From assembly GCA_038049695.1 (NCBI GenBank), contig CP142452.1, forward strand, positions 30,182,501-30,246,500: DNA of 64,000 nt. The letters run 5' to 3'. A program made the translations under genes and the position numbers. This document shows, one piece after another, positions 5,134 to 58,198 of this stretch; position 1 is the first letter of the stretch, and every line of letters starts with the position of its first letter. The notes beneath the pieces were generated by a model. The model searched no databases, was not told the origin of the DNA, and was given only the letters and a program-made list of their open reading frames with translations. The DNA comes from Cinnamomum chago (Eukaryota > Streptophyta > Magnoliopsida > Laurales > Lauraceae).

Positions 5134-5765
5134 GTCCATTCATTTCCAACCTTTTTCAGGGCTTGAACCATGAACCTTTGAGAGCATTTTGGAGCCAAAG
5201 AAAGGGGAAGAAGTTGGAAAGGCTAGGGGGCCATTTGGAAATCAAATACATGAGTTCTTAAAAAGGTACACTTTACTTGTATTTTGATTTTCATTAAAAT
5301 GAAATCCATGCATGCTTAAATCTTTGTTTTTCACTTATGCATGATTTCAAGAGTTGTTTTGCAAACTCATTATCTTCATTGGTATATTAGAATGGTTTGC
5401 AATCACTCTCACCTAAATCACATGTGTTCTTAGACTTTTATATTCATACAACATGTTTTAGATCATTTCTTCAAGTTGTGTGAATCTTTCATGTGATTAG
5501 TATTTTTCTCTTCAATCATCATTTTATAAGCTTTGATTTTAAAATGCATCATGCATTCATTTAAGACCTTCATTGTTAAAATAGATTGAAGTAGAGCATT
5601 CATACACTTGTGCACACACTTTAACTTAATTGAGTGTATGTTTGTTATTTGTATTAAACTTTCATATTAGCCTAGTCAAGAGGCAATTTCATATGAGCTT
5701 AAATTGTAATCTCTTAGAGTGATCTTTTGTAAAGACACTTTCTTAGAGAAAGCTTTATTTGTAAA

Positions 5766-5932
5766 GGTTATTGCTTAGCCTAAGAAAAGCATTGTATAAG
5801 GTTATTGCTTAGCCTAAGAAAAACATATTGTAAGGTTATTGCTTAGCCTAAGAAAAGCATCTTGTAAGGTTGTTGTTTAGCCTTTGAAAAGCAACATTGT
5901 GTAGGTTATTGCTTAGCCTTTGAAAAAGCATA
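5766..5932. repeat. 34-bp tandem repeat in the LTR (about five copies)
   Basis: GGTTATTGCTTAGCC begins at about 5766, 5800, 5834, 5868 and 5904, so spacing is 34-36 bases. The first three copies share CCTAAGAAAAGCAT; the last two carry CCTTTGAAAAGCA. They lie downstream of the TATA box, in the transcribed part of the LTR. Confidence 0.8.
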
Positions 5933-17962: not shown

Positions 17963-19441
17963 GGACTTTCGTTTTCTATGTTTTAAGCTAACGTTCTAAC
18001 TTAAACTTACGTTTCGACTGTACGTGCAATCCGGGATTCGGGATCTCGTGCCGTCAATTCCTGTAAGTCATGAATGACTAGGGGCCCTTGCCCGGCAAGT
18101 TTCTAGGGCAATGGATCCCGCTTTCTAATTTTGGGCGCTTGGAGTCTCGTTTTCAAGGTTTTAAGCTAACGTTCTAACCTAAACCTAGCTTCCAACTGTG
18201 CGGGCAATCCGGGATTCGGAATCTCATTCCGTCAGTTCCTGTTAGCCATGAATGACTAGGGTCCCGTGCCCGTCAAGTTTCACGGTAATCAGATCCCGAT
18301 TGGTCATTTTGTGCCCCCGGAGGCTCGTTTTCTAGGTTTTAAGATAGCGTTTTAACTTCAACCAACGTTCCAACTGTACGGGCAATCCGAGATCCGGAAT
18401 CTTGTTCCGTCAACTCCTGCAAGTCATTTATGACTAGGGGCCCGTGCCCGTCAAGTTTCGAGGGCAACGGAGCCCGTTTTATCATTTTGGGCGCTCGTAG
18501 GCTCGTTTTATAGGGTTTAAGCTAATGTTCTAACCTAAACCTACGTTTCAACTATACGGGCAATCCGGGATTTAGAATCTCGTTCTGTCAGTTCTTACAA
18601 GTCATGAACGAGTAGGGGCCCGTGGCTGTCAAGTATCACGGGCAACGGACCCCGTTTGCTGATTTTGTGCGCCCGGAGGTTCGTTTTTTAGGTTTTAAGC
18701 TAACGTTCTAACTTAAATCTACGTTCTAACTGTACGGGCAATCCGGGACTCGTAATCTCGTTCCGTCAGTTCCTGCAAGTCATGAATGACTAGAGGCCCG
18801 TTTCGCCGAGTTTCAGGGGCAACGGAGCCCGTTTGCTCATTTTGGGCTCATGGAGGTTTGTTTTCTAGGTTTTAAGTTAACGATCTAACTTAAACCTACG
18901 TTTCATATGTACGGAAAATCCGGGATTTCGGAACCTCGTTCCGTCAGTTCTTGCAAGTCATGAATGACTAGGTGTCCGTGCCCGTAAAGTTTCACGGGCG
19001 ACGGAGCCAGTTAGCTCATTTTGGGCGCTTGGAGGCTTATTTTCTAGGTTTAAGCTAACGTTCTAACTTTTAAACCTACGTTTCAACTGTACGGACCATC
19101 CGGAATTTAGAATCTCGATCTGTCAGTTCCTACAAGTCATGAATGACTACGGACCCGTGCCCGTCAAATTTCACGGGCAACGGACCCCGTTTGCTCATTA
19201 AGGGGCCCCGGAGGCTCGTTTTCTACATTTAAAGCTAACGTTCTAAGTTAAACCTACGTTTCAACCGTACGGGAAATCCGGTAATCGAATTCTCGTTCTG
19301 TCAGTTCCTGCAAGTCGTGAATGACTAGGAGCCCGTGCCCGTTAAGTCTCCCAGTAAACGGAGCCTGTTTGCTTATTTTGGGCGCCCGGACTTTCGTTTT
19401 CTATGTTTTAAGCTAACGTTCTAACTTTTTTTTTTTTTTTT

Positions 19442-19461
19442 GAAGAGTAAGTTAGTTCTTC
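19442..19461 (-). other. 3' terminal hairpin of LINE A
   Basis: On the minus strand the element ends GAAGAACTAACTTACTCTTC then poly(A); GAAGA pairs with TCTTC. About 70 bp inward lies a second stem, AAGGGG-TATG-CCCCTT (near 19525-19540). Both stems recur in LINE B and LINE C, so they look like conserved 3' structures read by the ORF2 enzyme. That function is inferred from other LINEs with stringent 3' recognition. Confidence 0.6.
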
Positions 19462-19551
19462 ATTTTCTCAAAATAATATTCAGAAATGGAGTTTATCCGC
19501 CAGCAAGGCAGAAATAAACTCCCAAAGGGGCATACCCCTTACAAAGCATAT

Positions 19552-22500
19552 TTAATTCAAAGAGATGCCCACAACCCGGGCAAAGGTAGCAAATAACGAC
19601 ATAATATCAGAACCATTGATAATATTTGAGGGCCCAAGAGTCCTGCTAACAACTTTACTAAACCGAATAGTATGATGATGGAGCTTGGAATAGTGCACGT
19701 GGTCAAATCGTGTGAGGAAAGAATGAAACTTTCTCATTTGAAATCTTACACGCCAATCAGACAAAGATGGATCAGCCAAGCTCAAAGTCAACAGTGGGTC
19801 CGCCTCTATAGTAACAACATGTGCCTGGATGTGGAGAAGTTGCATAAAACTATGAACACCTGAATAGTAGTTGAGTGCTGATTCAATATGTGCATGAATA
19901 GGACAAGTTACATCTTTCCACAAGATGCCCACCATTCGCTGGTCAATAGTTGTGATGGAAAGTCTCCATCCAGGGTTCTGGACGACCAAAGGAGAAGGAC
20001 TGTGACTTTGATGAGGCTCTGCAGGAATATTCCAATGACCAGCAATATTCTCTGGGAGTTGGAGACCAAGGTAAAGAATCTTTCTGCAGACTGTATGCAG
20101 AATTTGATGAGCTACCATCTCAATTGTGTTAACTTTCAATCTGAAGATTCTACCATTCCTTTCAGCCCAAATATACCAAATAAAAGCATTCACAACAAGC
20201 TTTCCCAAAGTTTGAACATCATTACTGCATTGAGGTAGCTGAGAGTGGACTGATTGCATCAAATCCATCGGACTCATACATTCAGCCGGAGTCAAGTTGA
20301 GCTTTGAGAGAAGCAATGACCAAACTGATTTAGAGAAAGGGCATTGAAGCATCAAATGTGAGTCAGACTCCCAAGTAGCACTACAGAGCACACAGTTTGA
20401 GTCACATTGCACATGACGTTGGAGAAGGAATTCTTTGGTTTTAAGTCTCCTTTTCAAGAACATCCAAGAACACAGTGAATGTTTCTTGATACATCCCTTG
20501 AACCAAATCAAAGAAGGCCAAGTAAGGCCTTGATCAGTGAGATTACAAACCATTGCATAAGCTGATTTAAATGTGAATTTACCATTGTCTTCAAGTGTCC
20601 AGACCACCTCATCTTCAAAGGCATTACATGGCTCAACTTCAGTAGGCACTAGTTGGAAAATTTCCATAAGAGAATTGGACGTTGGAGTAGGGAATCTCCA
20701 ACTGCCATCCACAATGAAATGCCGAACATATACATCAGCTCCAAGCCCCATGTCATAGATTGCCCTATCCCCATAGCAATCTTTAAGCCGTCCCCCATTC
20801 AGCCATGGATCCGTCCAAAACTTTGTAATATGGCCATTACCAATCAGAAATTTTATATGATTCTTAGCAAGTGGCCTGAAGTGTAAAATACTCTTCCATC
20901 CCCATGAAGCCTGTCTTGGGATCGGAACATCCCAGAAGGAGCTACCCCGAAGATATCGTGGTTGGACCCATAGGTTCCAGCAAGTGTTCTTATTAAGGAT
21001 AATTTGCCACACCTGCCTTAAAAGGGCAGCTTTAGACGTTCCCGAAATGGATCGAATGCCAAGACCTCCCATAGCTACTGGCTGACAAATTGAGTCCCAA
21101 GCAATGGGATGAATATAAGCAGATGACCAACAATTCCAGAAGAAATCTCTCAACTGACGGTCAAGAGCATGCAGAGTTGCTTGAGGAAGTAAGTACACAG
21201 AAGCCCAGTAAAGATGAAAAGAAGATAGAGTGGATTTGATCAGCTCAACTCTCCCAGCATAAGATAAAGCTTTAGCTTTCCAACCTGCTAATCGATTTTG
21301 AATTTTGGCTAGGAGGGGCTGGCAGTCATTGAAGGTCAATCGCTTCGAGGATAAAGGAAGCCCAAGATACTTGATAGGAAGCTTTGCAGGCGGAATATTT
21401 AAGATGGAAGAGACAGCCAGTTCCTCGTCATGCCCACAGTTTGCAAAGAATATGGCACTCTTTGACCAGTTAACTCCCAAACCTGTGAATAGCTTGAAGT
21501 TGTCCAGAAAATGCTTGAGGTTCATTGCAGCAGAAGGAATAGCTTTACTAAAAACAATGAGATCATCAGCAAACATCAGATGAGAGACTGTGACATGCCC
21601 TTTGACAAAGGGGGAGGGGATCATATGAGAAGCAGCATATTGATTCATCAGGAGAGAAAAAAACTCCATAACAATAGTAAATAGAAACGGAGAGAGGGGG
21701 CACCCCTGTCTTAAGCCTCTAGTGCCTGTAAAGAAGCCTTCAGAGACTCCATTAACCAGAACTGAGAACTGAGCTTGAGTAACACATTCCATAAGTAACT
21801 TGATGAAATGGGCCGGAAAGTGAAGAGCATGAAGAGCTGCCTCCAAAAAATCCCATCGAACACTATCATAAGCTTTAGCAAGATCAAGCTTGATACACAT
21901 ACGAGGAAGGCCCTTCTTTAAGTGAAAGTTATGGAGAAGATCTTGGGCTAAAAGGATGTTATCTGCAATGCTCCTTCCTGGGACAAACGCTGACTGCATA
22001 GGGCTTACAATCTTTGCAATAACAGGTTTTAGTCGATTCAACAAGATACGGGAAATGATTTTATACAATTCATTAGTCAAGGCAATAGGGCGAAATTTAT
22101 CAGGCGACCGAGCATCATCACTTTTGGGAACCAGCACTATAAAGGTGTGCTTCAATTGCCTAAGCAGAGATCCATGCTTGAAGAAGTCAATGATGCTATC
22201 ACACACATCCTTACCAATAATAGGCCAGCACACCTTAAAGAAGTGTGCATTGAACCCATCTGGCCCAGGGGCTTTATTTGGGTTGGCATTTTTAATAGCT
22301 TCTTCAATCTCAGCAATGGTAACTGGCCGCAGGAGCATGTGTGCTTCCTCTTCAGAGACAAAAGCTTGGGGAGTAACATGGGTGAGGTCCGGCAGATGGC
22401 TTTCAAGAGGTGGAGCCAAAATATGTTGAAAATGAGAGACAAAGGTAGCAGCAATACCTGGAGAGTCATAGTAAGTGTTCCCCTCCAAATCCATAATCTG

Positions 22501-23631
22501 AGCAATGAAAGACTGATTGTGCCTCTTCCTCATAAGCCGATAGAAGTACTTGGTATTACTATCCCCCAGATTCACAGCAAGATCTCTGGATCGCTGTTTA
22601 TACATGCTTTCCTCCGCCTTTAAGATCTGATCCAAGTGGTATCTCGCCATCCTTTCATCCATTTGAAGGTTACTATTTGTCGGATCGCTCACCAAAGAAC
22701 TTTGAATATTATTCAAATGGGCAGAAGCTTCTGCTAATCGAGTTGGAAGAGAGGCCTGGGTCCGTTTCCATTCAATGAGCTGGTGCTTGACTCTTCTGAG
22801 TTTTTGAACCACCCTATACAGAGGTGTGCCCCGGATTTCAGTATGCCAAGCATATGTAACTGTTTCAAAGAAACCAGGCAGCTTTGCCCAATAATTAAAG
22901 TACCGGAATGGAGCCTTAAAGTGTGCTTGCTCACGAGAGGAAATCAGCAATGGAGTATGATCAGAGAGACCTGGCATAAGAACCTCCCCTTGAAACAGAT
23001 TCAGCTGTAGAAAAGCTGCATTCACCAAGACTCTATCCAGCCGACATTCAATTCTAGAATCTCCAATACTAGAATTCGACCAAGTGAAAGGCTGTCCCTG
23101 GAGAGACAGATCAACCAGCCCTGCCTCTTGAATGCAATCATTGAATTCAATAAGACCAGCAGCCCGTGGGATGGAACCCCCAGATTTTTCATGAACCCAA
23201 CGAACAGTATTAAAGTCCCCAGCCAGTAGCCATGGTTTAGAGATACTCCTGGATCGAGCAATGATGTAGTGCCAAAGGTCCCTTCGCTGCAGGTGGCTAT
23301 TGTAACCATAGCACGCTGTGAGTTCAAACATCCCGCTTCTACAGACAACGTCACAGTGAATAGCTTGAGCAGTATGCTGAATAGTGTGGATAGTGATAAC
23401 TCTTGGGTTCCATAGAATCCAAATTCTGGCTGAAGAACACTCAGCAATGTTTGATGTTTCAACCCATCCATGCGGCAAGATTGTATTAGCAATATCGTAC
23501 AGAGAGGATGGTTTAACTTTCGTTTCAAGGAGCACAAGTAAATCAAGCTTCAACTGAGATATTTTATTCCTCAAGTCCAAGTGCATGGAGGGTCTGTTAA
23601 GACCTCTGACATTCCATATGATGTATCTCAT
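19552..23631 (-). CDS. LINE A ORF2: endonuclease-reverse transcriptase (1359 aa)
   Basis: A complete frame for the enzyme that nicks target DNA and copies LINE RNA into it. Residues 1-232 form an AP-endonuclease-like domain: WNVRG (Asn7), LLETK (Glu36), CYGY (Tyr108), GDFN (Asp139, Asn141), LDR (Asp199) and SDH (Asp224, His225). Residues about 450-770 are reverse transcriptase: KAPGPDG, LDLAKAYD (Asp583), RQGCPLSP and FADD (689-690). A zf-RVT finger follows with Cys1080, Cys1083, His1092 and Cys1097. Residues about 1215-1335 resemble an RNase H fold but lack its full catalytic set. The start ATG overlaps the ORF1 stop as ATGA. All key endonuclease and RT residues are present, so the protein could be active. 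Confidence 0.93.
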   Translation of the reverse strand: MRYIIWNVRGLNRPSMHLDLRNKISQLKLDLLVLLETKVKPSSLYDIANTILPHGWVETSNIAECSSARIWILWNPRVITIHTIQHTAQAIHCDVVCRSGMFELTACYGYNSHLQRRDLWHYIIARSRSISKPWLLAGDFNTVRWVHEKSGGSIPRAAGLIEFNDCIQEAGLVDLSLQGQPFTWSNSSIGDSRIECRLDRVLVNAAFLQLNLFQGEVLMPGLSDHTPLLISSREQAHFKAPFRYFNYWAKLPGFFETVTYAWHTEIRGTPLYRVVQKLRRVKHQLIEWKRTQASLPTRLAEASAHLNNIQSSLVSDPTNSNLQMDERMARYHLDQILKAEESMYKQRSRDLAVNLGDSNTKYFYRLMRKRHNQSFIAQIMDLEGNTYYDSPGIAATFVSHFQHILAPPLESHLPDLTHVTPQAFVSEEEAHMLLRPVTIAEIEEAIKNANPNKAPGPDGFNAHFFKVCWPIIGKDVCDSIIDFFKHGSLLRQLKHTFIVLVPKSDDARSPDKFRPIALTNELYKIISRILLNRLKPVIAKIVSPMQSAFVPGRSIADNILLAQDLLHNFHLKKGLPRMCIKLDLAKAYDSVRWDFLEAALHALHFPAHFIKLLMECVTQAQFSVLVNGVSEGFFTGTRGLRQGCPLSPFLFTIVMEFFSLLMNQYAASHMIPSPFVKGHVTVSHLMFADDLIVFSKAIPSAAMNLKHFLDNFKLFTGLGVNWSKSAIFFANCGHDEELAVSSILNIPPAKLPIKYLGLPLSSKRLTFNDCQPLLAKIQNRLAGWKAKALSYAGRVELIKSTLSSFHLYWASVYLLPQATLHALDRQLRDFFWNCWSSAYIHPIAWDSICQPVAMGGLGIRSISGTSKAALLRQVWQIILNKNTCWNLWVQPRYLRGSSFWDVPIPRQASWGWKSILHFRPLAKNHIKFLIGNGHITKFWTDPWLNGGRLKDCYGDRAIYDMGLGADVYVRHFIVDGSWRFPTPTSNSLMEIFQLVPTEVEPCNAFEDEVVWTLEDNGKFTFKSAYAMVCNLTDQGLTWPSLIWFKGCIKKHSLCSWMFLKRRLKTKEFLLQRHVQCDSNCVLCSATWESDSHLMLQCPFSKSVWSLLLSKLNLTPAECMSPMDLMQSVHSQLPQCSNDVQTLGKLVVNAFIWYIWAERNGRIFRLKVNTIEMVAHQILHTVCRKILYLGLQLPENIAGHWNIPAEPHQSHSPSPLVVQNPGWRLSITTIDQRMVGILWKDVTCPIHAHIESALNYYSGVHSFMQLLHIQAHVVTIEADPLLTLSLADPSLSDWRVRFQMRKFHSFLTRFDHVHYSKLHHHTIRFSKVVSRTLGPSNIINGSDIMSLFATFARVVGISLN

Positions 23632-24182
23632 GACAAACGAGATTTATGAGAAGCCCTGTCCTTAATGACTACCCCAGAAGGACCCGGTTTATGTTTGCTG
23701 GTGCTTGGTATTTTCGGCAGGAGACTTTTATCCAATTGATGAATAGAAGAGATATCTCGTTGCTGACTAGAGGAGGATATAGCCAGAGTCTGGTGATGCA
23801 CCGTAGTGTCCAAGGAACCCAACACTGTGGCAGTTGTGGAGACAATTTCTGCATCAGAGACATTAGAATCGCCCTCCAAATTTGATAGGCTGAGGAAGCT
23901 ATTCGCTTGGATCGCCCCTCCATGTCCAGAGACTTGCTGCATCGCCATGCGGTGCTTTGGAGATGGTATCTTATCAGGTGACCGTTTACGTTTGACGATA
24001 TTCCAGTCATCCCCTGGAGCACTCTGCTGCTGCTCTTCACCACGTTCACTTACTTGCTCCGGACCCTTCTCTTTAGTAACACAGAAATCTTCTACATGGT
24101 GGGATTCAGATTCTTTATCTTTAGTACTGCCCTTTGGAACCCACTTCTTTGTAGTTGGATTGGCATCCTCCTTAAATGGGCA
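23628..24182 (-). pseudogene. LINE A ORF1, C-terminal 184 codons only
   Basis: The frame is open from the element's truncated edge and begins CPFKEDANPTT, where CP is the last part of a CCHC knuckle (compare SCPLK in LINE B ORF1). It continues through a Lys/Ser-rich tail with DDWNIVK and FLSLSNLEGDSNVS, which match WNVVK and FLSLSNLEGDSSV in LINE B. It ends SHKSRLS with TGA overlapping the ORF2 ATG. The N-terminus, DUF4283-like domain and most of the zinc knuckle are missing, so it cannot make a working ORF1 protein. An internal Met at 23948 would give only 106 residues. Confidence 0.8.
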
Positions 24183-24202
24183 ACTTTTTTTTTTTTTTTT
24201 TT

Positions 24203-24222
24203 GAAGAGTAAGTTAGTTCTTC
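24203..24222 (-). other. 3' terminal hairpin of LINE B
   Basis: Identical in the outer 20 bases to the end of LINE A (GAAGA...TCTTC), followed by poly(A). The second stem, AAGGGG-TATG-CCCCTT, lies near 24267-24282. Conservation here, while the adjoining UTR differs greatly from LINE A, suggests selection on the tail. Confidence 0.6.
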
Positions 24223-24344
24223 AATTGGAAAAAAATACAAAGATGGAAGCTTATCATCAACTTCCATAAGGGGCATACCCCTTTAAATACACTCAAGATA
24301 AACTAATGAAATTTAACGAACAAAATAAATCATCTCAAAGACAC

Positions 24345-25010
24345 ACTAACGTGGAAACATACAAGAAACTCCTCCACATGTGCTGGCAGTGGTCCAAATG
24401 AGCTCTTGCACTCCACCCAATAGGTGTAGGTTAAAGATAATGAAAATAATTGCTTGATTTGGTCTCCAACAGGACAATCAAAAGCAAAAAGCTATGATGA
24501 TGTCATGAGAGCCACTTGTAATGAAGACCAATGAAGACTTTTCACAATCCAAAAGAGTACTTGACTTTTTCTCCAACATACCAACCAAAGCATGATGTCA
24601 TCGTTGAGATTCACTTGGAAGTCATACAAGAGATCAACGTTGGGCAGTAGACTCATCTTCCAAATAATTCATTCACGCCACCCAATAGCCAAAGTGTAGG
24701 TGAGAAGATAATGGTGATAAGATCTTCTTAAAGGTGTACTTGACTTTATCTCCAAGAGACCAACCAAAGCAAAAGTGAAAGCTATGATGTCATCGTTGAA
24801 AGCCACTTGCAATGAAGCCTATGAGGAACGTCCACCACATGCATTAGCACCCAATCTAGTTCTTCCACGCCCCCCAAAAGGCAACTTTTAGGAGATAAGA
24901 TAATGAGAAAATTGTGCTTGACTTTGTCTTCAACAACCCAACCAAAGCAATCGTGAAAAACTGTGATGACATCGATGAGATCCACTTGTAATGAAACCGA
25001 TGAAGACCTA
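24345..25010 (-). repeat. Degenerate ~180-bp tandem repeats replacing ORF2 in LINE B
   Basis: A phrase of the form ATGATGTCATCGTTGAGAGC then CACTTGTAATGAAG recurs at about 24493, 24592, 24780 and 24960 on the plus strand. A second phrase (CTTGACTTTGTCTCCAACA...CCAACCAAAGC) recurs between the copies, as does CCACGCCACCCAATAG. Full units are about 180 bp with one shorter unit of about 100 bp, all diverged. No similarity to the host satellite is apparent apart from unit length. This segment lies between the ORF1 stop and the 3' hairpin. No ORF2 remnant was seen. Confidence 0.65.
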
Positions 25011-26843
25011 TCACAGTCCATTGAAGAAACCCGATTTAAGAGTGGACCTCTCCTTATTGACAGCGCCAGAAGATCCCTTTTTTGACTTGAGAGACGGACC
25101 AGATGGTTTGACTGCTACCTGGCCATCAGCTTGAGAAGAAACTGTTGTAGGCTGAATGCCACCTGTAGCACCTTGAAGAACGAGAGCAGTGGTTTGCTCT
25201 ATTTCATCTGCAGATACAGAAGAATCTCCATCCAGATTTGAGAGACTGAGGAAACGGTGGGAAACCTGAACCGGTGTATGGTCTCCACCCTGCAGTTTTA
25301 TTGCCTTGTTAGCAGGAGGGCGAGAGGAAGAAGACACCAGAGATGGTGATTCCTCTGGGCCAACCGATGAGTCTCCCTCAAGATTTGATAAACTTAGAAA
25401 ACGATTTAAGGCCACTGTGAGAACCTGGGTAGAAGATTTCATAGGACTGGCGTGAATCGTGTCAGGAGAAGATGCGCCTTTAACAACATTCCATTCAAGC
25501 AGTGCTGAATCATGTTGCATCACGTCCCGCTGAATGACTGCAGCATCCTCTGCAACCTGCTCATCGGCACCATCATGTGCAGCAGCACTAGCACGTGTAG
25601 TAACATCAACCAATGGAGTCTCCCCAGATGAAGAGTGTTTTGGGACCCAAACCTTCTTTGGTTTGTGCTGGGAAACCTTCAGAGGGCATGAAGTATCACC
25701 ATGATTGAAGGTCCGACAAGTTTTACAAGGATGAGGGCGCCAAGCATATTCAATCTTCTGTGTAATAGTTTTCTCCTTATACTTCATCCGCAACTCAGTG
25801 GGAAACTCTGCATCAACATCTACTTCAACACAAACCCTAGCGAAAGCATACCGTGTGCCTGCTGCAGTTGCATGATCCATGCAAATAGGGTTGCCAATAA
25901 CACTTGCGATTTTACTGAGTGCAGAGGTAGTCCGAAAACAAAAATTAAGGTTTGGAAGACGAACCCATACAGGGATGGACTCAAGGTTGTCGCGACCCAT
26001 AGTTATATCCACAGCCCACCTACGCAGAATTAATGGACGACCATACACAAACCAAGGTCCATCATCCAGTATCTGTTGGCCCGCATCATGAGAGTGAAAC
26101 TTGAATAGCAGAAACCCCTCTGCCATGGGAATAATCTCCAGATCCGGCAATCTCCAGGCTTTTGAAAGACACAACTTGATTTCAGAGATGGGAGGCGCTT
26201 TTCCAATAAAGTATCCTACAAGAGAGTTCCCCCAGCTTTGGATCGCTGCAAAAGAATCTTCGTCATCGAAAACAACATGATGATCCGGATCTGTCGAAGG
26301 CTTGGCATGGCGCTGCAAGTCTCTTGAACGATTAGGTTGTTTGTGAAACAGCGATGACCAAGATTCAGTCATCTGTTTAGCGTGCACCTTTTTCGGATCT
26401 GAAGAAGACGATCCGGTAGCATTAGTCAGGGGATTCTGCAACATTGTATGATCAAGGACCCCACCAGTAGCACCTCTGGGAGTGGGCGAATCCACCACTG
26501 CTGCCAACTCATCGTCAGAAAGCATTCGACCAAGGTGTTGCTCCACCTGTAAAAGGGCTTCAACAGAAGGGTAGCACTCGGGAGAGTGGATGGATGCAGC
26601 ACGATCAGCAGAAGCCTTTCGGTCATCGCAAAGGCGGATCTTTGCCTCTAGGATTAGATCACGAGGAACATCCAACGGAATAAAACATTCCTGCTTTCTC
26701 TTTAAAATCGACTTTAACAGAGAGACTTTTGCACCACGATCCTCAGCATAAGACAGAAGCAAGTGGATCTGGTCAGTCAACGAAAGTGGCACAGAAGAGG
26801 GAGGAAGAGGATCGGAGGGAATGGAGGTTAACCCTCCATCCAT
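25011..26843 (-). CDS. LINE B ORF1: DUF4283-like, CCHC zinc-knuckle nucleic-acid-binding protein (610 aa)
   Basis: ORF1 proteins of plant L1-type LINEs bind element RNA. I place the start at 26843 (MDGGLTS) because the in-frame upstream Met at 26942 lies inside the minisatellite and would add a hydrophobic 33-residue leader coded by repeat DNA. Residues about 195-280 are the DUF4283-like fold (SLVGYFIGKAP, AEGFLLFKF, ILDDGPWFV, LILRRW). A knuckle of form CX2CX4HX4C follows at 373, 376, 381 and 386 (CKTCRTFNHGDTSC). The C-terminal tail is Ser-rich and carries FLSLSNLEGDSSV twice, about 49 residues apart. There are no stops or frameshifts. No ORF2 follows. Confidence 0.88.
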   Translation of the reverse strand: MDGGLTSIPSDPLPPSSVPLSLTDQIHLLLSYAEDRGAKVSLLKSILKRKQECFIPLDVPRDLILEAKIRLCDDRKASADRAASIHSPECYPSVEALLQVEQHLGRMLSDDELAAVVDSPTPRGATGGVLDHTMLQNPLTNATGSSSSDPKKVHAKQMTESWSSLFHKQPNRSRDLQRHAKPSTDPDHHVVFDDEDSFAAIQSWGNSLVGYFIGKAPPISEIKLCLSKAWRLPDLEIIPMAEGFLLFKFHSHDAGQQILDDGPWFVYGRPLILRRWAVDITMGRDNLESIPVWVRLPNLNFCFRTTSALSKIASVIGNPICMDHATAAGTRYAFARVCVEVDVDAEFPTELRMKYKEKTITQKIEYAWRPHPCKTCRTFNHGDTSCPLKVSQHKPKKVWVPKHSSSGETPLVDVTTRASAAAHDGADEQVAEDAAVIQRDVMQHDSALLEWNVVKGASSPDTIHASPMKSSTQVLTVALNRFLSLSNLEGDSSVGPEESPSLVSSSSRPPANKAIKLQGGDHTPVQVSHRFLSLSNLDGDSSVSADEIEQTTALVLQGATGGIQPTTVSSQADGQVAVKPSGPSLKSKKGSSGAVNKERSTLKSGFFNGL

Positions 26844-26896
26844 GGTGAGCCGCCAATCAGAATGAGGAAGAGGAGAAAACAATCGCCAGAGAAGGA

Positions 26897-29413
26897 AGAG
26901 AAAAAATAAAGAACCTAGAGAAAAAATAAAGAACCTAGACAAAAAATAAAGAACCTAGTAGAAAAAATAAAGAACCTAGTAGAAAAAATAAAGAACCTAG
27001 ATAGAAAAAATAAAGAACCTAGTAGAAAAAATAAAGAACCTAGAGAAAAAATAAAGAACCTAGAGAAAAAATGAAGAACCTAGAAAAAATAAAGAACCTA
27101 GAGAAAAAATAAAGAACCTAGAGAAAAAATAAAGAACCTAGAAAAAATAAAGAACCTAGAGAAAAAATAAAGAACCTAGCAGAAAAAATAAAGACCCTAG
27201 AGAAAAAATAAAGAACCTAGAAAAAATAAAGAACCTAGAGAAAAAATAAAGAACCTAGAGAAAAAATAAAGAACCTAGCAGAAAAAATAAAGAACCTAGA
27301 GAAAAAATAAAAGAACCTAGAAAAAATAAAGAACCTAGAAAAAATAAAGAACCTAGAGAAAAAATAAAGAACCTAGAGAAAAATAAAGAACCTAGAGAAA
27401 AAATAAAGAACCTAGAGAAAAAATAAAGAACCTAGAAAAAATAAAGAACCTAGAGAAAAAATAAAGAACCTAGTAGAAAAAATAAAGAACCTAGTAGAAA
27501 AAATAAAGAACCTAGTAGAAAAAATAAAGAACCTAGTATAAAAAATAAAGAACCTAGTAGAAAAAATAAAGAACCTAGTAGAAAAAATAAAGAACCTAGT
27601 AGAAAAAATAAAGAACCTAGAAAAAATAAAGAACCTAGAAAAATAAAGAACCTAGAAAAATAAAGAACCTAGAAAAAATAAAGAACCTAGAAAAATAAAG
27701 AACCTAGAAAAAATAAAGAACCTAGAAAAAAAAAATAAAGAACCTAGAAAAATAAAGAACCTAGAAAAAATAAAGAACCTAGAAAAATAAAGAACCTAGA
27801 AAAAATAAAGAACCTAGAAAAAAATAAAGAACCTAGAAAAAAATAAAGAACCTAGAAAAATAAAGAACCTAGCAAAAATAAAGAACCTAGAAAAATAAAG
27901 AACCTAGAAAAAATAAAGAACCTAGAAAAAATAAAGAACCTAGAAAAAAATAAAGAACCTAGAAAAAAATAAAGAACCTAGAAAAAATAAAGAACCTAGA
28001 AAAAAATAAAGAACCTAGAAAAAATAAAGAACCTAGAAAAAATAAAGAACCTAGAAAAAAATAAAGAACCTAGAAAAAAATAAAGAACCTAGAAAAAATA
28101 AAGAACCTAGAAAAAATAAAGAACCTAGAAAAAATAAAGAACCTAGAGAAAAAATAAAGAACCTAGAAAAAAATAAAGAACCTAGAAAAAATAAAGAACC
28201 TAGAAAAAATAAAGAACCTAGAAAAAATAAAGAACTTAGAAAAAATAAAGAACCTAGAAAAAAATAAAGAACCTAGAAAAAAATAAAGAACTTAGTAAAA
28301 AATAAAGAACCTAGTAAAAAATAAAGAACCTAGTAAAAAATAATAAAGAACCTAGTAAAAAATAAACAACCTAGTAAAAAATAAAGAACCTAGTAAAAAA
28401 TAAAGAACCGAGTAAAAAATAAAGAACCTAGTAAAAAAATAAAGAACCTAGTAAAAAATAAAGAACCTAGTAAAAAAATAAAGAACCTAGTAAAAAATAA
28501 AGAACCTAGTAAAAAATAAAGAACCTAGTAAAAAAATAAAGAACCTAGTAAAAAATAAAGAACCTAGTAAAAAATAAAGAACCTAGTAAAAAAATAAAGA
28601 ACCTAGTAAAAAATAAAGAACCTAGTAAAAAATAAAGAACCTAGTAAAAAATAAAGAACCTAGTAAAAAATAAAGAACCTAGTAAAAAAAAAATAAAGAA
28701 CCTAGTAAAAAAATAAAGAACCTAGTAAAAAATAAAGAACCTAGTAAAAAAATAAAGAACCTAGTAAAAAATAAAGAACCTAGTAAAAAATAAAGAACCT
28801 AGAAAAATAAAGAACCTAGTAAAAAATAAAGAACCTAGTAAAAAATAAAGAACCTAGTAAAAAAAATAAAGAACCTAGTAAAAAATAAAGAACCTAGTAA
28901 AAAATAAAGAACCTAGTTTAAAAAATAAAGAACCTAGTTTAAAAAATAAAGAACCTAGTTTAAAAAATAAAGAACCTAGTTTAAAAAATAAAGAACCTAG
29001 TTTAAAAAATAAAGAACCTAGTTTAAAAAAATAAAGAACCTAGTTTTAAAAAATAAAGAACCTAGTATTAAAAATAAAGAACCTAGTTTTAAAAAATAAA
29101 GAACCTAGTTTTAAAAAAATAAAGAACCTAGTTTTAAAAAATAAAGAACCTAGTTTTAAAAAATAAAGAACCTAGTTTTAAAAAATAAAGAACCTAGTTT
29201 TAAAAAATAAAGAACCTAGTAAAAAATAAAGAACCTAGTAAAAAATAAAGAACCTAGTAAAAAAATAAAGAACCTAGTAAAAAATAAAGAACCTAGTTAA
29301 AAAATAAAGAACCTAGTTAAAAAATAAAGAACCTAGTTAAAAAAATAAAGAACCTAGTTAAAAAATAAAGCACCTAGTTAAAAAATAAAGAACCTAGTTA
29401 AAAAATAAAGAAC
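26897..29413. repeat. 18-bp A-rich minisatellite, about 135 copies
   Basis: About 2.5 kb of AGAAAAAATAAAGAACCT-type units, 17-22 bases each; the copy number is estimated from length. Variants come in ordered zones: AGAG spacers with some CAG (about 26.9-27.47 kb), AGTAG (27.47-27.61), plain AG with 4-6 As (27.61-28.28), AGTAAAAAA (28.28-28.91), AGTTTAAAAAA (28.91-29.04), AGTTTTAAAAAA (29.04-29.22), AGTAAAAAA again, then AGTTAAAAAA to the end. The left edge grades into the 5' end of LINE B; the right edge meets satellite at TAAACTTACG. Every unit contains AATAAA on the plus strand and stops in translation. Confidence 0.95.
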
Positions 29414-46815: not shown

Positions 46816-48560
46816 TGTGGTAGGGACACACCAAGGTATAAAATCCTGCTTCCCACCGTTTGAGTGATTTTCTGCAATACAGCCTTACTGGATAGTGTCT
46901 TACCTCTGAAAATCCTTCCATTTCTTTCAGCCCATATATGCCAGATGAATGCATTGAAGATTAGTTTCCCAAGAGTTTGAAGTCCCTTCTCTCGATGGGC
47001 TAGAGGAATGATGATGGAATCCAATAGTGCTAATTGATTTGTACAACTGATTGGCTCCAAGTTCAGCTTAGCTAATAGAGATTTCCACACTTCTTGAGAA
47101 AAAGGACATTGGGTCATTAGATGAGTAGGTGTCTCCCAGGTACAGTCACATAAAACGCAGCAAGAATCACATGCAACATTACGCTGGAGTAGAAAATCTT
47201 TAGTTTTTAGCCTCCCCCAAAGAAGCATCCAAGCACAAATAGAGTGTTTTTTTATACATCCTGTAAACCATATCATTGTAGGCCAAGAGATAGTTGTATT
47301 CCAACTCCTACTAACCAGATTGTATGCAGATTTTAGGGTAAATTTCCCATTGACTTCTGGAGTCCATACAATTTCATCATTGAAGTTAGGCCATGGATCA
47401 ATCTCACTTGGAATAGATTGGAAGATGTCTATCAAGGAGTTAGAAGTTGGAGTGGGAAAATGCCATCCATCCTCTTGAATAAAATGATGGAGTTTCAAAT
47501 CTGATCCCATGCCTAAATCATATACTGCTCTCTCACCAAAGCAATCTTTTAGTCTCCCTCCATTAAGCCAATGGTCTGTCCAGAAATGTATGTGCTGCCC
47601 ATTGCCCACTAAAAATTTTATATGAGGTAAAACAATTGGTCAGAGCAGTAGAATGTTTCTCCACCCCCAAGAGGCTTTGGATGGAATGGGAACGTCCCAA
47701 AAGGAAGCACCTCTCAAGTACTTTGCATTCACCCATAAGTTCCAGCAAGTTGGTTTGTTACTTACCACATTCCAAACTTGCCTTAAGATGGCTGCCTTGG
47801 CTGTCCCATGAACCGATCTAATACCCAGTCCTCCTATAGAAGTTGTTGGCAGATAGTGTCCCAAGCTATAGGGTGTATATAGTGATTAGTCCAGCAATTC
47901 CAGAAAAAGTCTCTGATCTGACGATCCAAAGCTTGCAAAGTAACTGTAGGAAGCATGAACACCGTTGCCCAGAAAAGATGGAAGGAAGACAGGGTGGATT
48001 TGATGAGCTCCACTCTACCTGCATCAGATAAGATTTTTTCTTTCCACCCTGATAGTCTCTGCTGAACTTTTGCTAAGAGGGGTCGACAGTCATTGAAATT
48101 CAACCTTTTTGATGACAAAGGAACACCCAGGTATCTGATTGGAAGATTGGCCTTTGTGACATTAAGAAGAGAAGATATTGCACACTGATCATCCTCACAA
48201 CAATTAGCAAAGAAAATTGAACATTTTGTCCAATTAACTCCCAGCCCTGTGAAATCTTTGAATTGATCAAGGAAATGCTTGAGATGAGCTGCTGCAACTA
48301 GTGAAGCCTTGCTAAAAACAATCAAGTCATCAGCAAACATACTATGAGATATAATGATATCACTCTTTCGAAAGGGAGAAGGGATCAAACCAGATTCAGC
48401 ATATTTATCCATCATGACAGAGAAAAATTCCATAGCTATAGCAAAAAGAAAAGGTGATAGTGGACAGCCCTGCCGAACCCTCTTGTGCTCTTAAAGAAAC
48501 CCTCAGCACTCCCATTGACCAACACTGAAAATTGCGTACCTGTTACACATTCCAACAGAA
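46816..48560 (-). pseudogene. LINE D: internal ORF2 fragment (RT to zf-RVT), frameshifted
   Basis: A 1745-bp minus-strand piece homologous to LINE A ORF2 residues about 612-1195. It begins LLECVTGTQFSVLVNGSAEGFF, has a one-base loss before RQGCPLSP, then carries FADDLIVFSKA (RT), a frameshift after AWDTICQ, GGLGIRSVHGTAKA, an in-frame TGA near 47640, then FWTDHWLNGGRLKDC and the zf-RVT motif (CCVLC...HLMTQCPF). It lacks the endonuclease, RT motif A, the C-terminus, 3' UTR and poly(A). Satellite resumes exactly (CTTATTTTCT / AGGTTTAAGC), with no loss or duplication. It is an older, diverged relative of LINE A. Confidence 0.85.
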
Positions 48561-51706: not shown

Positions 51707-51993
51707 TTTTTTTTTTTTGAAGAGTAAGTTAGCTCTTCAATTAGAAAAGTATAAAATACAGAAACGGAAGTCTATGATCAAAAGATAATAGAAGCTTCCA
51801 AAGGGGCATACCCCTTGAAATACACATCAACTCAACTCAAAAAGAATGACACCCTATTGAAAGAATCTAAATTCTCGCATTAATAGAGTAATACAAAAGA
51901 TCAATGTTATCTACATTTAACAATGGAGGACCAGGAGATTGACTTCTGATCTTACTAAACTTCACTGTCTGAGGATGAAGGCTTGCAAAACTG
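51707..51993 (-). mobile_element. LINE C: short 3' end of a LINE A/B-family element
   Basis: The T-run at 51706-51718 is the poly(A). It is followed by GAAGAGTAAGTTAGCTCTTC, the family hairpin with a six-base stem, and AAGGGGCATACCCCTT, the inner stem. The last ~42 codons of ORF2 read on the minus strand from 51993 to a TAG at 51867-51869: ...LHPQTVKFSKIRSQSPGPP..., matching LHHHTIRFSKVVSRTLGPS in LINE A. It is strongly 5' truncated, as usual for LINEs. About seven bases of satellite (TCTAGGG) are missing at the site and no target duplication is seen. Confidence 0.85.
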
Positions 51994-54509
51994 ACAATGG
52001 AGCCCGTTTACTCATTTTGGACGCTCGGAGGCTCGTTTTCTAGGTTTTAAGCTAACGTTCTAACATAAACCTAGCTTCCAATTGTGCGAGCAATCCGGGA
52101 TTCGGAATCTCGTTCCGTCAGTTCCTATGAGCCATGAATGACTAGGGTCCCGTGCCCGTCAAGTTTCACGGTCAACAGATCCCGTTTGGTCATTTTGTGC
52201 CCCCGGAGGCTCGTTTTCTAGGTTTTAAGCTAACGTTTTAACTTCAACCAACGTTCCAACTGTACGGGCAATCCGGGATTTGGAATCTCGTTCCGTCAAT
52301 TCCTGTAAGTTATTTATGACTAGGGGCCCGTGCCCGTCAAGTTTCGAGGGCAACGGAGCCCGTTTTCTCATTTTGGGCGCTCGGAGGCTCGTTTTCTAGG
52401 TTTTAAGCTAATGTTCTAACCTAAACCTACGTTTCAACTGTACGGGCAATCCGGGATTTAGAATCTCGTTCTGTCAGTTCTTACAAGTCATGAATGAGTA
52501 GGGGCCCGTGGCCATCAAGTTTCACGGGCAACGGACCCCGTTTGCTGATTTTGTGCGCCCGGAGGCTCGTTTTCTAGGTTTTAAGCTAACGTTCTAACCT
52601 AAACCTAGCTTCCAACTGTGCGGGCAATCCGGGATTCGGAATCTCATTCCGTCAGTTCCTGCAAGCCATGAATGACTAGAGGCCCATTTCGTCAAGTTTC
52701 AGGGGCAACGGACCCCGATTGCTCATTTTGGGCACATTGAGGCTTGTTTTCTAGGTTTTAAGTTAACGATCTAACTTAAACCTACGTTTCATATGTACGG
52801 AAAATCCGAGATTCGAAACCTCGTTCCGTCAGTTCTTACAAGTCATGAATGACTAGGTGTCCGTGCCCGTAAAGTTTCACGGGCAACGGAGCCAGTTAGC
52901 TCATTTTGAGCGCTTGGAGGCTTATTTTCTAGGTTTAAGCTAACGTTCTAACTTAAACCTACGTTTCAACTGTACCGACTATTCGGAATTTAGAATCTTG
53001 ATCCGTCAGTTCCTACAAGTCATGAATGACTACGGACCCGTGCCCGTCAAATTTCACGGGCAACGGACCCCGTTTGCTCATTAAGGGGCCCCGGAGGCTC
53101 GTTTTCTAGATTTAGAGCTAACGTTCTAACTTAAACCTACGTTTCAACCGTACGGGCAATCCGGTAATCGAATTCTCGTTCTGTCAGTTCCTGCAAGTCG
53201 TGAATGACTAGGAGCCCGTGCCCGTCAAGGCTCCCAGGCAACGGAGCCCGTTTGCTTATTTTGGGCGCCCGGACTTTCGTTTTCTATGTTTTAAGCTAAC
53301 GTTCTAACTTAAACTTACGTTTCGACTGTACGTGTAATCCGGGATTCGGAATCTCGTTCCGTCAATTCCTGTAAGTCATGAATGAGTAGGGACCCGTGCC
53401 CGGCAAGTTTCTAGGGAAATGGAGCCCGTTTTCTCATTTTGGGCGCTCGGAGGCTCGTTTTCTAGGTTTTAAGCTAACGTTCTAACCTAAACCTAGCTTC
53501 CAACTGTGCGGGCAATCCGGGATTAGGAATCTCATTCCGTCAGTTCCTGTGAGCCATGAATGACTAGGGTCCCGTGCCCGTCAAGTTTAACGGTCAACAG
53601 ATCCCGTTTGGTCATTTTGTGCCCCCGAAGGCTCGTTTTCTAGGTTAACTTCAACCAACATTCCAACTGTACGGGCAATCCGGGATTCGGAATCTCGTTC
53701 CGTCAATTCCTGTAAGTCATTTATGACTAGGGGCCCGTGCCCGTCAAGTTTCGAGGGCAACGGAGCCCGTTTTCTCATTTTGGGCGCTCGGAGGCTCGTT
53801 TTCTAGGTTTTAAGCTAATGTTCTAACCTAAACCTACGTTTCAACTGTACGGGCAATTCGGGATTTAGAATCTCGTTCTGTCAGTTCTTACAAATCATGA
53901 ATGAGTAGGGGCACGTGGCCGTCAAGTTTCACGGGCAACGAACCCCGTTTGCTCATTTTGGGCGCTTGGAGGCACGTTTTCTAGGTTTTAAGCTAACGTT
54001 CTAACCTAAACCTAGCTTCCAACTGTGCGGGCAATCCGGGATTCGGAATTTCATTCCGTCAGTTCCTGCAAGCCATGAATGACTAGAGGCCCATTTCGTC
54101 AAGTTTCAGGGGCAACGGAGCCCGTTTGCTCATTTTGGGCACATGGAGGCTTGTTTTCTAGGTTTTAAGTTAACGATCTAACTTAAACCTACGTTTCATA
54201 TGTACAGAAAATCTGGAATTCGGAACCTCGTTCCGTCAGTTATTGCAAGTCATGAATGACTAGGCGTCCGTGCCCGTAAAGTTTCACGGGCAACGGAGCC
54301 AGTTAGCTCATTTTGGGCGCTTGGAGGCTTATTTTCTAGGTTTAAGCTAACGTTCTAACTTAAACCTACTTTTCAACTGTACGAACCATCCGGAATTTAG
54401 AATCTCGATCCGTCGGTTCCTACAAGTCATGAATGACTACGGACCCGTGCCCGTCAAATTTCACGGGCAACGGACCCCGTTTGCTCATTAAGGGGCCCCG
54501 GAGGCTCGA
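51994..54509. repeat. Satellite block 5 and right array edge
   Basis: Resumes at CAATGGAGCCCG in monomer a. One type a head lies at about 53271. Both e monomers here (near 52,560 and 53,960) carry a b-type core (CCTAAACCTAGCTTCCAACTG) inside e-like ends. Monomer c near 53,625 has a short internal deletion. The array stops in monomer h at GGCCCCGGAGGCTCG (54509); no monomer is recognisable beyond. Confidence 0.93.
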
Positions 54510-56359: not shown

Positions 56360-58198
56360 TTTTTTTATTTATTTTATAAACGGTAAATTTTATTCAAAGA
56401 AAGAAGAAACAAATGAAGAACAACGAATAGGAATAAAAATAACACAAACAAAAGCTCAACATCAAACGAAATGTGAAGCCGAAAAACTCCGTCTCTAGCA
56501 AGACCATCAGCCAAGAAATTAGCTTCATGAGGAATATGAAGAAAAGAAGCTCCTAGGTGAGATGAAATATCTTGCACCTCCTCCCCCAAATCAGTTAAAG
56601 TCCATAGATGAGAAAACTTCCCAGAACCCCATTGAATCGCAGAGAAAGAACCGCCTTCCATTATTGCATGAAGACCTCCCAGATGACGTAATTCACGGCA
56701 GCCCACCAATAAAGCATACATCTCAGCTCCATTAGAATCAACACAATTCACAGGACCCGCGAAGTTTTTGACAATTTTTCCAGAGAAGTCACGAATGACA
56801 CCCCTTAATTCCACATATCTGAATATGCGGAAAATAACTGCCATTAAAATTTAGCTTAAGAAAACCATTCAAGGGGTTCCCACAATAGATTTTTTTCTGA
56901 GAATACAGTGCCTTCCACCTTGAAAATGAGCTGGCCAAGATCTAGTAAGAGCTTCTAAAGAGACTCCAACAAATTCAACCTTCCTAATGGCCCATTCCGA
57001 AGCAACCCAAATAACGGACCGAACAGCCTCCTAAGGAGGTTTGCATTTATTTTTAAAAACTCTATTATTCCTCTCAACCCATAACTTCCAAAGACCAGCA
57101 TATAAGGATAACCGCCACAGAATGCTCCCACGAACAGATTTACCCCAGAAAATTCACTGCTAAAAAAACTCCTTAATAGAACGAGGCATGACCCAACACA
57201 TATAAAAAATTCTAATGATAGACGTCCACATATTTGAGCATAGTTGCAATGGACCAGAAGGTGGGTCGTCGTTTCCTCATCTTGTAAACGAAGTGGACAC
57301 CCATTAACAACAGTAAAATTTCTCCCTCTTAATTGATCCATAGTAAGAATTTTATGTAAACGGGCTACCCAATAGAATACCAAGATTCTTGGAGGAACAA
57401 TAGGGTTCCAAAATCTCTTCCAACCTACCATCCGATCGCACACACCAATCAAGACATTATAAAAAGATTTAACTGAAAAATTTCCTTTAGCTTTATCCTT
57501 CCAAATCCTAACATCCCTTCTCCCTCCAGAGATACATGTCTTGTTAAGTAAAGAAAGAAAACTAACATACTTTATCACCTCATGATCGTGCAAATATCGA
57601 CGAAAGTGGAAACTCCAAACTCTTGATCCACCCACAAAATGAGAATTATCTGCAACAAAGGCCTAGGGGTTCCTGTCCAAAAGGAAAAGAGAAGGAAACT
57701 GACACCGCAGGTTAGCATTACCACACCATTTATCATGCCAAAACTTAATTCTATTCCCATCATGAACCCAGTACCTTGTCCACTTATTGAACTCTATTTT
57801 CACAGAAAAAATTGACTTCCATAACCCCGAAGACTTACAACTAAGATCTGGAATGCACCATCCATTTCTTCTCACGTTATACTTATCAATAAGGATTTGT
57901 CTCCATAACCGTTGATTCGAGTTACCCATTCTCCATAACCACTTTCCAAGCAATGCTTTGTTCATATTTTCAATAGAACGGATACCCAAACCTCCTTGCG
58001 CAATAGGTTTGCAAATAACCTCCCATCTGACCAAATGATATTTTCTCCTCTCAACAGTATCATTCCAAAGGAATTCACGTTGAATCTTCTCCAATCTTCG
58101 CATGACACCTTTTGGACATCTGAAGCAAGACAAAAAATAGATAGGGATGCTTGAAAGAACTGATTTAAGAAGAGTCGATTCGTCACTTTTGAAAATCT
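56360..58198 (-). mobile_element. LINE E: 5' truncated, decayed L1-type LINE with RNase H
   Basis: A minus-strand LINE 3' portion of a family different from A-D. It opens at about 58,198 within late RT sequence (STLLKSVLSSIPIYFLSCFR), then QREFLWND and AQGGLGIRS, an in-frame TAG near 57,665, a zf-RVT region (56955-57635, PPRILVFYWVARL...TTHLLVHC), frameshifts, and an RNase H domain (56374-56860). RNase H shows NGAEMYALL, MEGGSFSAIQW and HEANFLADGLA; the usual acidic residue in the second motif is Gly and the first is Asn. The 3' end has a TTTTTTT tail on the plus strand. A similar ATGGATATGAA phrase near both ends may be an imperfect target duplication. Confidence 0.8.

Follow-up and report, generated by a model that had tools for sequence, protein, structure and literature searches.

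An ORF1-only family of plant LINEs, probably mobilised in trans by two-ORF relatives

Mammals harbour half-LINEs, elements that retain ORF1 and have no ORF2, and fly telomeres have them in another form. HAL1 elements of mammals are described as L1-derived, encoding ORF1p only and having several origins (PMC5753468), and they are likely served by the L1 machinery (PMC4161310). HeT-A of Drosophila is presented as a non-LTR element with an ORF1 and without reverse transcriptase, which a partner element serves (PMC4700185). For plants, an ORF1 with a DUF4283 domain is described as conserved among LINEs of diverse species, and the Celine LINE of poplar as having such an ORF1, accumulating in centromeres and generating target duplications of 10-30 bp (PMC11288735). 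The partners of Stringent-type plant LINE/SINE pairs are likewise described as sharing a structured 3′ end (PMC3747384). No report of a plant ORF1-only LINE was recognised from titles and abstract openings in the open-licence literature.

LINE B, a minus strand element in the 64,000-nucleotide stretch of DNA that was analysed (the window, G000:C2:30182501-30246500), is very probably one copy of a dispersed and recently active half-LINE family, which would use a LINE-machinery cycle with ORF2p acting in trans. The structure of the family, its dispersal, insertion marks, mosaic ancestry and kept reading frame are read from genomic sequence (the genome is 1.06 Gb in 14 contigs). The window is largely a 178-bp satellite, interrupted at 19426-29413 by LINE B and the adjacent LINE A, whose features are:

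24185 to about 29413, minus strand: LINE B, a half-LINE, from 5′ array to poly(A)
26901-29413, minus strand: 5′ tandem array of LINE B, ~129 units of 19 bp (Tandem Repeats Finder)
25011-26843, minus strand: ORF1 of LINE B, open, 610 codons (reading-frame translation)
25827-26195, minus strand: DUF4283 domain in this ORF1 (Pfam E 8.4e-27, coordinates hand-converted)
25686-25727, minus strand: CKTCRTFNHGDTSC in this ORF1, which we take to be a CCHC-like zinc knuckle (translation read by eye)
25263-25289 (approximate), minus strand: join of the L015-like ORF1 head to the half-LINE tail (identity scan and junction letters)
25139-25140, minus strand: point at which 99 nt are missing, in frame, by comparison with L010 (the stretch is absent from L016 and L041 too)
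24381-24954, minus strand: tail repeats, tandem ORF2-start remnants (nhmmer with an ORF2-start profile, and self-match)
24858-24954, 24641-24817 and 24381-24559, minus strand: tail repeat units (nhmmer)
24561-24610, minus strand: fourth tail repeat unit, weak (nhmmer E 0.11)
24203-24285, minus strand: 3′ end of LINE B, predicted to form three hairpins, of which the first and last are common to LINE A in sequence
24185-24202, minus strand: poly(A) of LINE B, 18 A (read from the letters)
19426-24184, minus strand: LINE A, a separate, apparently 5′-truncated LINE at the tail of LINE B
23632-24184, minus strand: ORF1 remnant of LINE A, C-terminal end only
19552-23631, minus strand: ORF2 of LINE A, open, 1359 codons
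19426-19441, minus strand: poly(A) of LINE A, 16 A

Read 5′ to 3′ on the minus strand, LINE B consists of a 2.5-kb array of 19-bp units, ORF1, about 0.6 kb of tail repeats, the hairpins and its run of A, and no ORF2 was found between ORF1 and the poly(A) by letters, frames or self-match. LINE A consists of the C-terminal end of an ORF1, its long ORF2, a B-like 3′ end and poly(A). The intact ORF1 and poly(A) tail of LINE B, and the intact ORF2 and lost ORF1 of LINE A, are as the original prediction had them. Its 5′ limit for LINE B, at 26896, is too short: units like those of the 19-bp array lie directly upstream of ORF1 in 13 of 13 other elements examined (L009-L015, L017, L020, L021, L023, L024 and L026), and the array is for this reason assigned to LINE B, of which it is the presumed promoter region. 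The half- and full-length LINEs examined open with 1 to ~129 tandem units of 15-19 bp (AGTTCTTTATTTTTTCT type), and the monomers of mouse L1 have a tandem 5′ layout that resembles such arrays. By their domains (DUF4283 in ORF1; endonuclease, reverse transcriptase and zf-RVT in the ORF2 of full-length relatives), the ORF1 of LINE B and the ORF2 of LINE A are of the L1 type of plant LINE, and the DUF4283 domain itself speaks for a plant as the source of the DNA. Relative to L010 the window ORF1 has a 6-nt as well as the 99-nt in-frame deletion. An AlphaFold model of ORF1 (mean pLDDT 32.8) was set aside, and a PDB profile search gave 0 matches.

Though LINE A had been seen as complementary to LINE B and as its likely ORF2 donor, the letters around it point elsewhere. 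It is preceded by (A)18GTT and followed by (A)16GTT, so that A most likely went into the tail of B as a later, 5′-truncated insertion and the pair is two insertions. Nothing marks it as a donor, and a special role of this kind is not supported. Both frames are open in L021 and L024, so possible ORF2 donors exist among the two-ORF LINEs (the shared 3′ end is present in L024; the L021 slice ends before that region). The locus L002, 608 kb from the window, is a duplicate in which the B-A junction recurs.

The 3′ hairpins are shared by B and A as predicted for the first and last, which are common in sequence; the middle one differs in sequence, as it does among the half-LINEs and ORF2-bearing LINEs compared. 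Both kinds of element repeatedly have GGGGTATGCCCC (in variant form in L013 and L025) and, at the terminus, TGAAGA...TCTTCA, the minimum-energy fold departing from the three-hairpin picture in several sequences. At 51709-51994, on the minus strand, is another LINE 3′ end, the third noted in the window, which likewise has these hairpins and this tail. Other repeat traces in the window are a fragment of another LINE ORF2, 68% identical to that of LINE A, within satellite (46905-48554), three frames of 156-226 codons which by eye resemble remnants of reverse-transcriptase elements (56374-58133), and 34-bp tandem repeats between satellite blocks (5759-5931).

ORF2 of LINE B had been thought to be replaced by about 0.7 kb of unrelated repeats. 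It is indeed absent, but the repeats derive from its start, and their being unrelated is ruled out. A profile made from the first 300 nt of ORF2 of 11 LINEs matches 6 of 6 tails tested with best scores of 21.1 to 51.5 bits (the window tail gives 26.7 bits, nhmmer E 3.6e-9, and the highest-scoring relative E 1e-16), each tail having one to three matches with E under 0.01, all of them between profile positions 8 and 233. These scores are well above those of the controls, in which 300 shuffled tails reached at most 10.5 bits and ten other ORF2 slices at most 4.1 bits; the tail repeats are thus inexact tandem copies of the opening ~200 nt of ORF2. The loss of ORF2 accordingly begins some 230 nt into the frame and not, as first proposed, at the ORF1/ORF2 junction (the overlap there is ATGA in the six two-ORF LINEs inspected). 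A second ORF concealed in the tail was considered and rejected: the tail frames of 60-165 codons are consistent across tails neither in frame nor in length, and the ORF2-start repeats are not maintained as a reading frame.

An ORF1 query of the genome gave at least 63 matches (40 of 162 candidates scored). Among the regions read (20, three and one fetched, plus the loci returned with the two genome searches), the B structure, which is ORF1 or part of it, tail and poly(A) with no ORF2 between, occurs at 12 places: the window, L005, L009, L010, L011, L012, L013, L014, L016, L041, L042 and C12_62.2. Duplicates were counted with their parents (L006 and L007 with L005; C12_62.2 is L040+L044, with a duplicate 7.7 kb away). 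The 12 insertions are spread over eight contigs, C1, C2, C3, C4, C6, C7, C11 and C12. ORF1 is open, with 608-645 codons, in all eight that are near full length, in that they reach the 5′ units (window, L009-L014 and C12_62.2), and the prediction of an ORF1-only LINE family holds; the remaining four are 5′-truncated or inverted, and L042 is interrupted. Search matches alone give a C12_62.2-type ORF1 with a tail match 0.5-0.7 kb downstream at C8:31.26 Mb, C3:64.46 Mb and C12:59.34 Mb. Other C12_62.2-type ORF1 matches have no tail match (for instance C12:64.69, 64.96, 65.30 and 65.48 Mb and C10:16.25 Mb), the tail query not being of C12_62.2 type.

Several further observations were made at these loci. 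On other contigs half-LINEs also lie in a different tandem satellite, with a repeat of roughly 320 bp (flanks of L010, L011, L013 and L016), and the flank of L040 is repeated on contig C12. At G000:C7:28722683-28725304 (partly in L042) a half-LINE is split by an ORF1 element of ~2.6 kb on the opposite strand, too short for ORF2. Matches to parts of the tail only, from the search alone, are present far from satellite clusters at G000 C2:7350410, C3:20860747, C4:49766014 and others.

The ORF1 head of the half-LINEs seems, from sequence comparison, to have been exchanged with two-ORF relatives. In an identity scan, L010 is 86-98% identical to L015, a LINE with both ORF1 and ORF2 present (each now broken), up to about ORF1 nt 1500, and 42-82% identical to C12_62.2 over the same stretch; after about nt 1545 its identity to C12_62.2 is 80-91% in aligning blocks, with the last 20-nt block at 100% (the L015 row of the scan ends at the ORF1 end). 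Across its whole 9.9-kb locus, L015 aligns with B solely at positions 7-1612, and nothing in it matches the tail. In an ORF1 tree of 25 sequences half-LINEs stand in two distant places, with starred branches that force two changes, and the two places still stand although one row labelled autonomous, L042anti, probably lacks the length to hold an ORF2 itself. L014 belongs to the B group in the ORF1 tree (100/99) and groups with C12_62.2 and L042 in the tail tree (100/100), the branch lengths of which are uncertain since repeat units may be misaligned. From the two places of half-LINE ORF1s, the single tail family and the discordance of L014, it follows that ORF1 was exchanged, with at least two separate joins, the second being known from one element, L014. 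The B group would have received an ORF1 close to that of L015, C12_62.2 has a distant ORF1, and L014 would be the outcome of a second, separate joining, located elsewhere than the join in L010 and L011.

The joining of heads to tails is probably the result of RNA template switching. Gene conversion or unequal recombination of DNA is a possible, if less likely, source of the mosaics, since numerous related elements sit close together, a few Mb apart at most, on the same contigs. However, gene conversion usually requires longer homology, and the L014 join is a single breakpoint with a 7-nt microhomology, AAACAGA, common to L015 and C12_62.2, as template switching predicts. The tail seems older than the present ORF1 heads. 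A tentative extension of the template-switching reading, for which we would claim somewhat less than even standing, is that the lasting unit is the tail, an ORF2-start array plus LINE 3′ end, as an RNA parasite outliving the ORF1 heads that it repeatedly picks up; the array may be a cis signal that draws in partner proteins.

Selection on ORF1 appears in the kept frame, and in dN/dS below 1 only in the core. No stop occurs in the near-full-length ORF1s of the B group, whereas simulating substitution without selection gave 4.2 on average (P=0.015). Indels that break the frame are 0 of 4 distinct ones in ORF1 versus 12 of 15 in the tail, a contrast for which the one-sided exact p is about 0.01 (by hand; tail indels within repeats may not be independent). 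On the internal half-LINE branches (to the L010 group, the L011 group and L014) a dN/dS below 1, which had been expected of ORF1, is found in residues 190-390, the DUF4283-CCHC core (omega 0.31, 7:8, p=0.022, one of four tests and uncorrected), and is not established for the whole ORF1 (0.81, 39:18, p=0.27); residues 1-189 give 0.91, and whole-ORF1 omega was 1.1 when the span ran past the L014 join. In residues 391-500 omega is above 1, with 11 nonsynonymous changes to 1 synonymous, an excess that is possibly adaptive, the numbers being small. Pairwise omega up to the zinc knuckle is 0.44-0.59 for three pairs between B subgroups; C12_62.2 against L042 has 0.48 over 365 codons (p=0.09) and, from 7 changes ahead of the knuckle, 1.62. 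Among two-ORF LINEs, four diverged pairs have 0.08-0.23, lower than the half-LINEs, so that constraint on ORF1 in half-LINEs looks present and weaker than in two-ORF LINEs. It is unlikely that half-LINE RNA is a passive template with no need of ORF1p, its ORF1 open since the copies are young and stem from few masters. Such a state would agree with the omegas of the whole ORF1 and its N-terminal part, and with the existence of L006, a truncated duplicate with a frameshifted ORF1. Against it are the lack of stops, the indel contrast between ORF1 and tail, the core omega, and a reading frame that continues across both joins.

The copies bear marks of retrotransposition. Clear target duplications, of 16 bp, are present at 2 of the 12, L010 and L016, and the 5′ segment of L016 is inverted in the manner of twin priming. 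Shorter candidates were seen by eye at L012 and L041; the window, L005 and L014 have at most a few bases; and no target duplication was found at L009, L011, L013, L042 and C12_62.2 (5 of 12). L009 is inserted inside the ORF2 of another LINE. The window copy differs from L016 by 2 mismatches in 1897 aligned bases and from L041 by 2 in 1076, so elements of the window type moved recently. The check proposed with the original prediction, that copies should be dispersed, share the ORF1-repeat junction and carry tails and target duplications, is in this way borne out, the duplications being clear at two copies. An origin of the copies by DNA-level duplication or conversion among satellite arrays is very improbable. 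At least 8 of the 12 are in or beside tandem repeats, and tandem-repeat duplication does also multiply half-LINEs (L002, L006, L007 and C12:62.196 Mb), L002 repeating the B-A junction of the window; among the nine loci whose flanks were compared (L005, L007, L009-L014 and L016), L005 and L007 share theirs at 99%. The other flanks, however, are alike only where both loci sit in satellite, L041, L042 and C12_62.2 are distinct from other copies by position, and differing 5′ truncation points, poly(A) and the insertion within a LINE also tell against duplication, which L010 and L016 already largely refute. A single LINE with a private deletion of ORF2 has next to no probability and no remaining support after the genome search, as the same ORF1-tail junction recurs in other copies and the structure is present at 12 insertions, the window included, on eight contigs.

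In the cycle proposed for the family, a half-LINE would be transcribed from its 5′ repeat array, and ORF1p translated from that RNA would coat it. ORF2p of two-ORF LINEs, recruited by way of the shared 3′ hairpins and poly(A), would reverse transcribe the half-LINE RNA, and integration would be by target-primed reverse transcription. A plant family of this kind would show that ORF1-only elements arise independently with another type of ORF1, and such independent half-LINEs bear on why nonautonomous elements retain ORF1. Head swapping onto a lasting tail, if true, would be a way to keep pace with changing partners.

The parallel with mammals that had been drawn for LINE B is apt in structure, an open ORF1 without ORF2 being found in eight of eight near-full-length copies. 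The likeness to HAL1 is that of an L1-type element keeping only ORF1. Unlike HAL1 proper, which descends from mammalian L1, the LINE B family has an ORF1 of DUF4283 type, and its tail is of tandem ORF2-start copies; one tail family is present on different ORF1 heads. HeT-A resides at chromosome ends, whereas the LINE B family is in satellites and elsewhere, with target duplications at two copies. Celine is a two-ORF family whose nonautonomous copies are described as truncated or as having disrupted ORFs, and the LINE B family is ORF1-only. The Stringent-type pairs resemble the LINE B family in the shared 3′ end, with the difference that here the nonautonomous partner is protein-coding.
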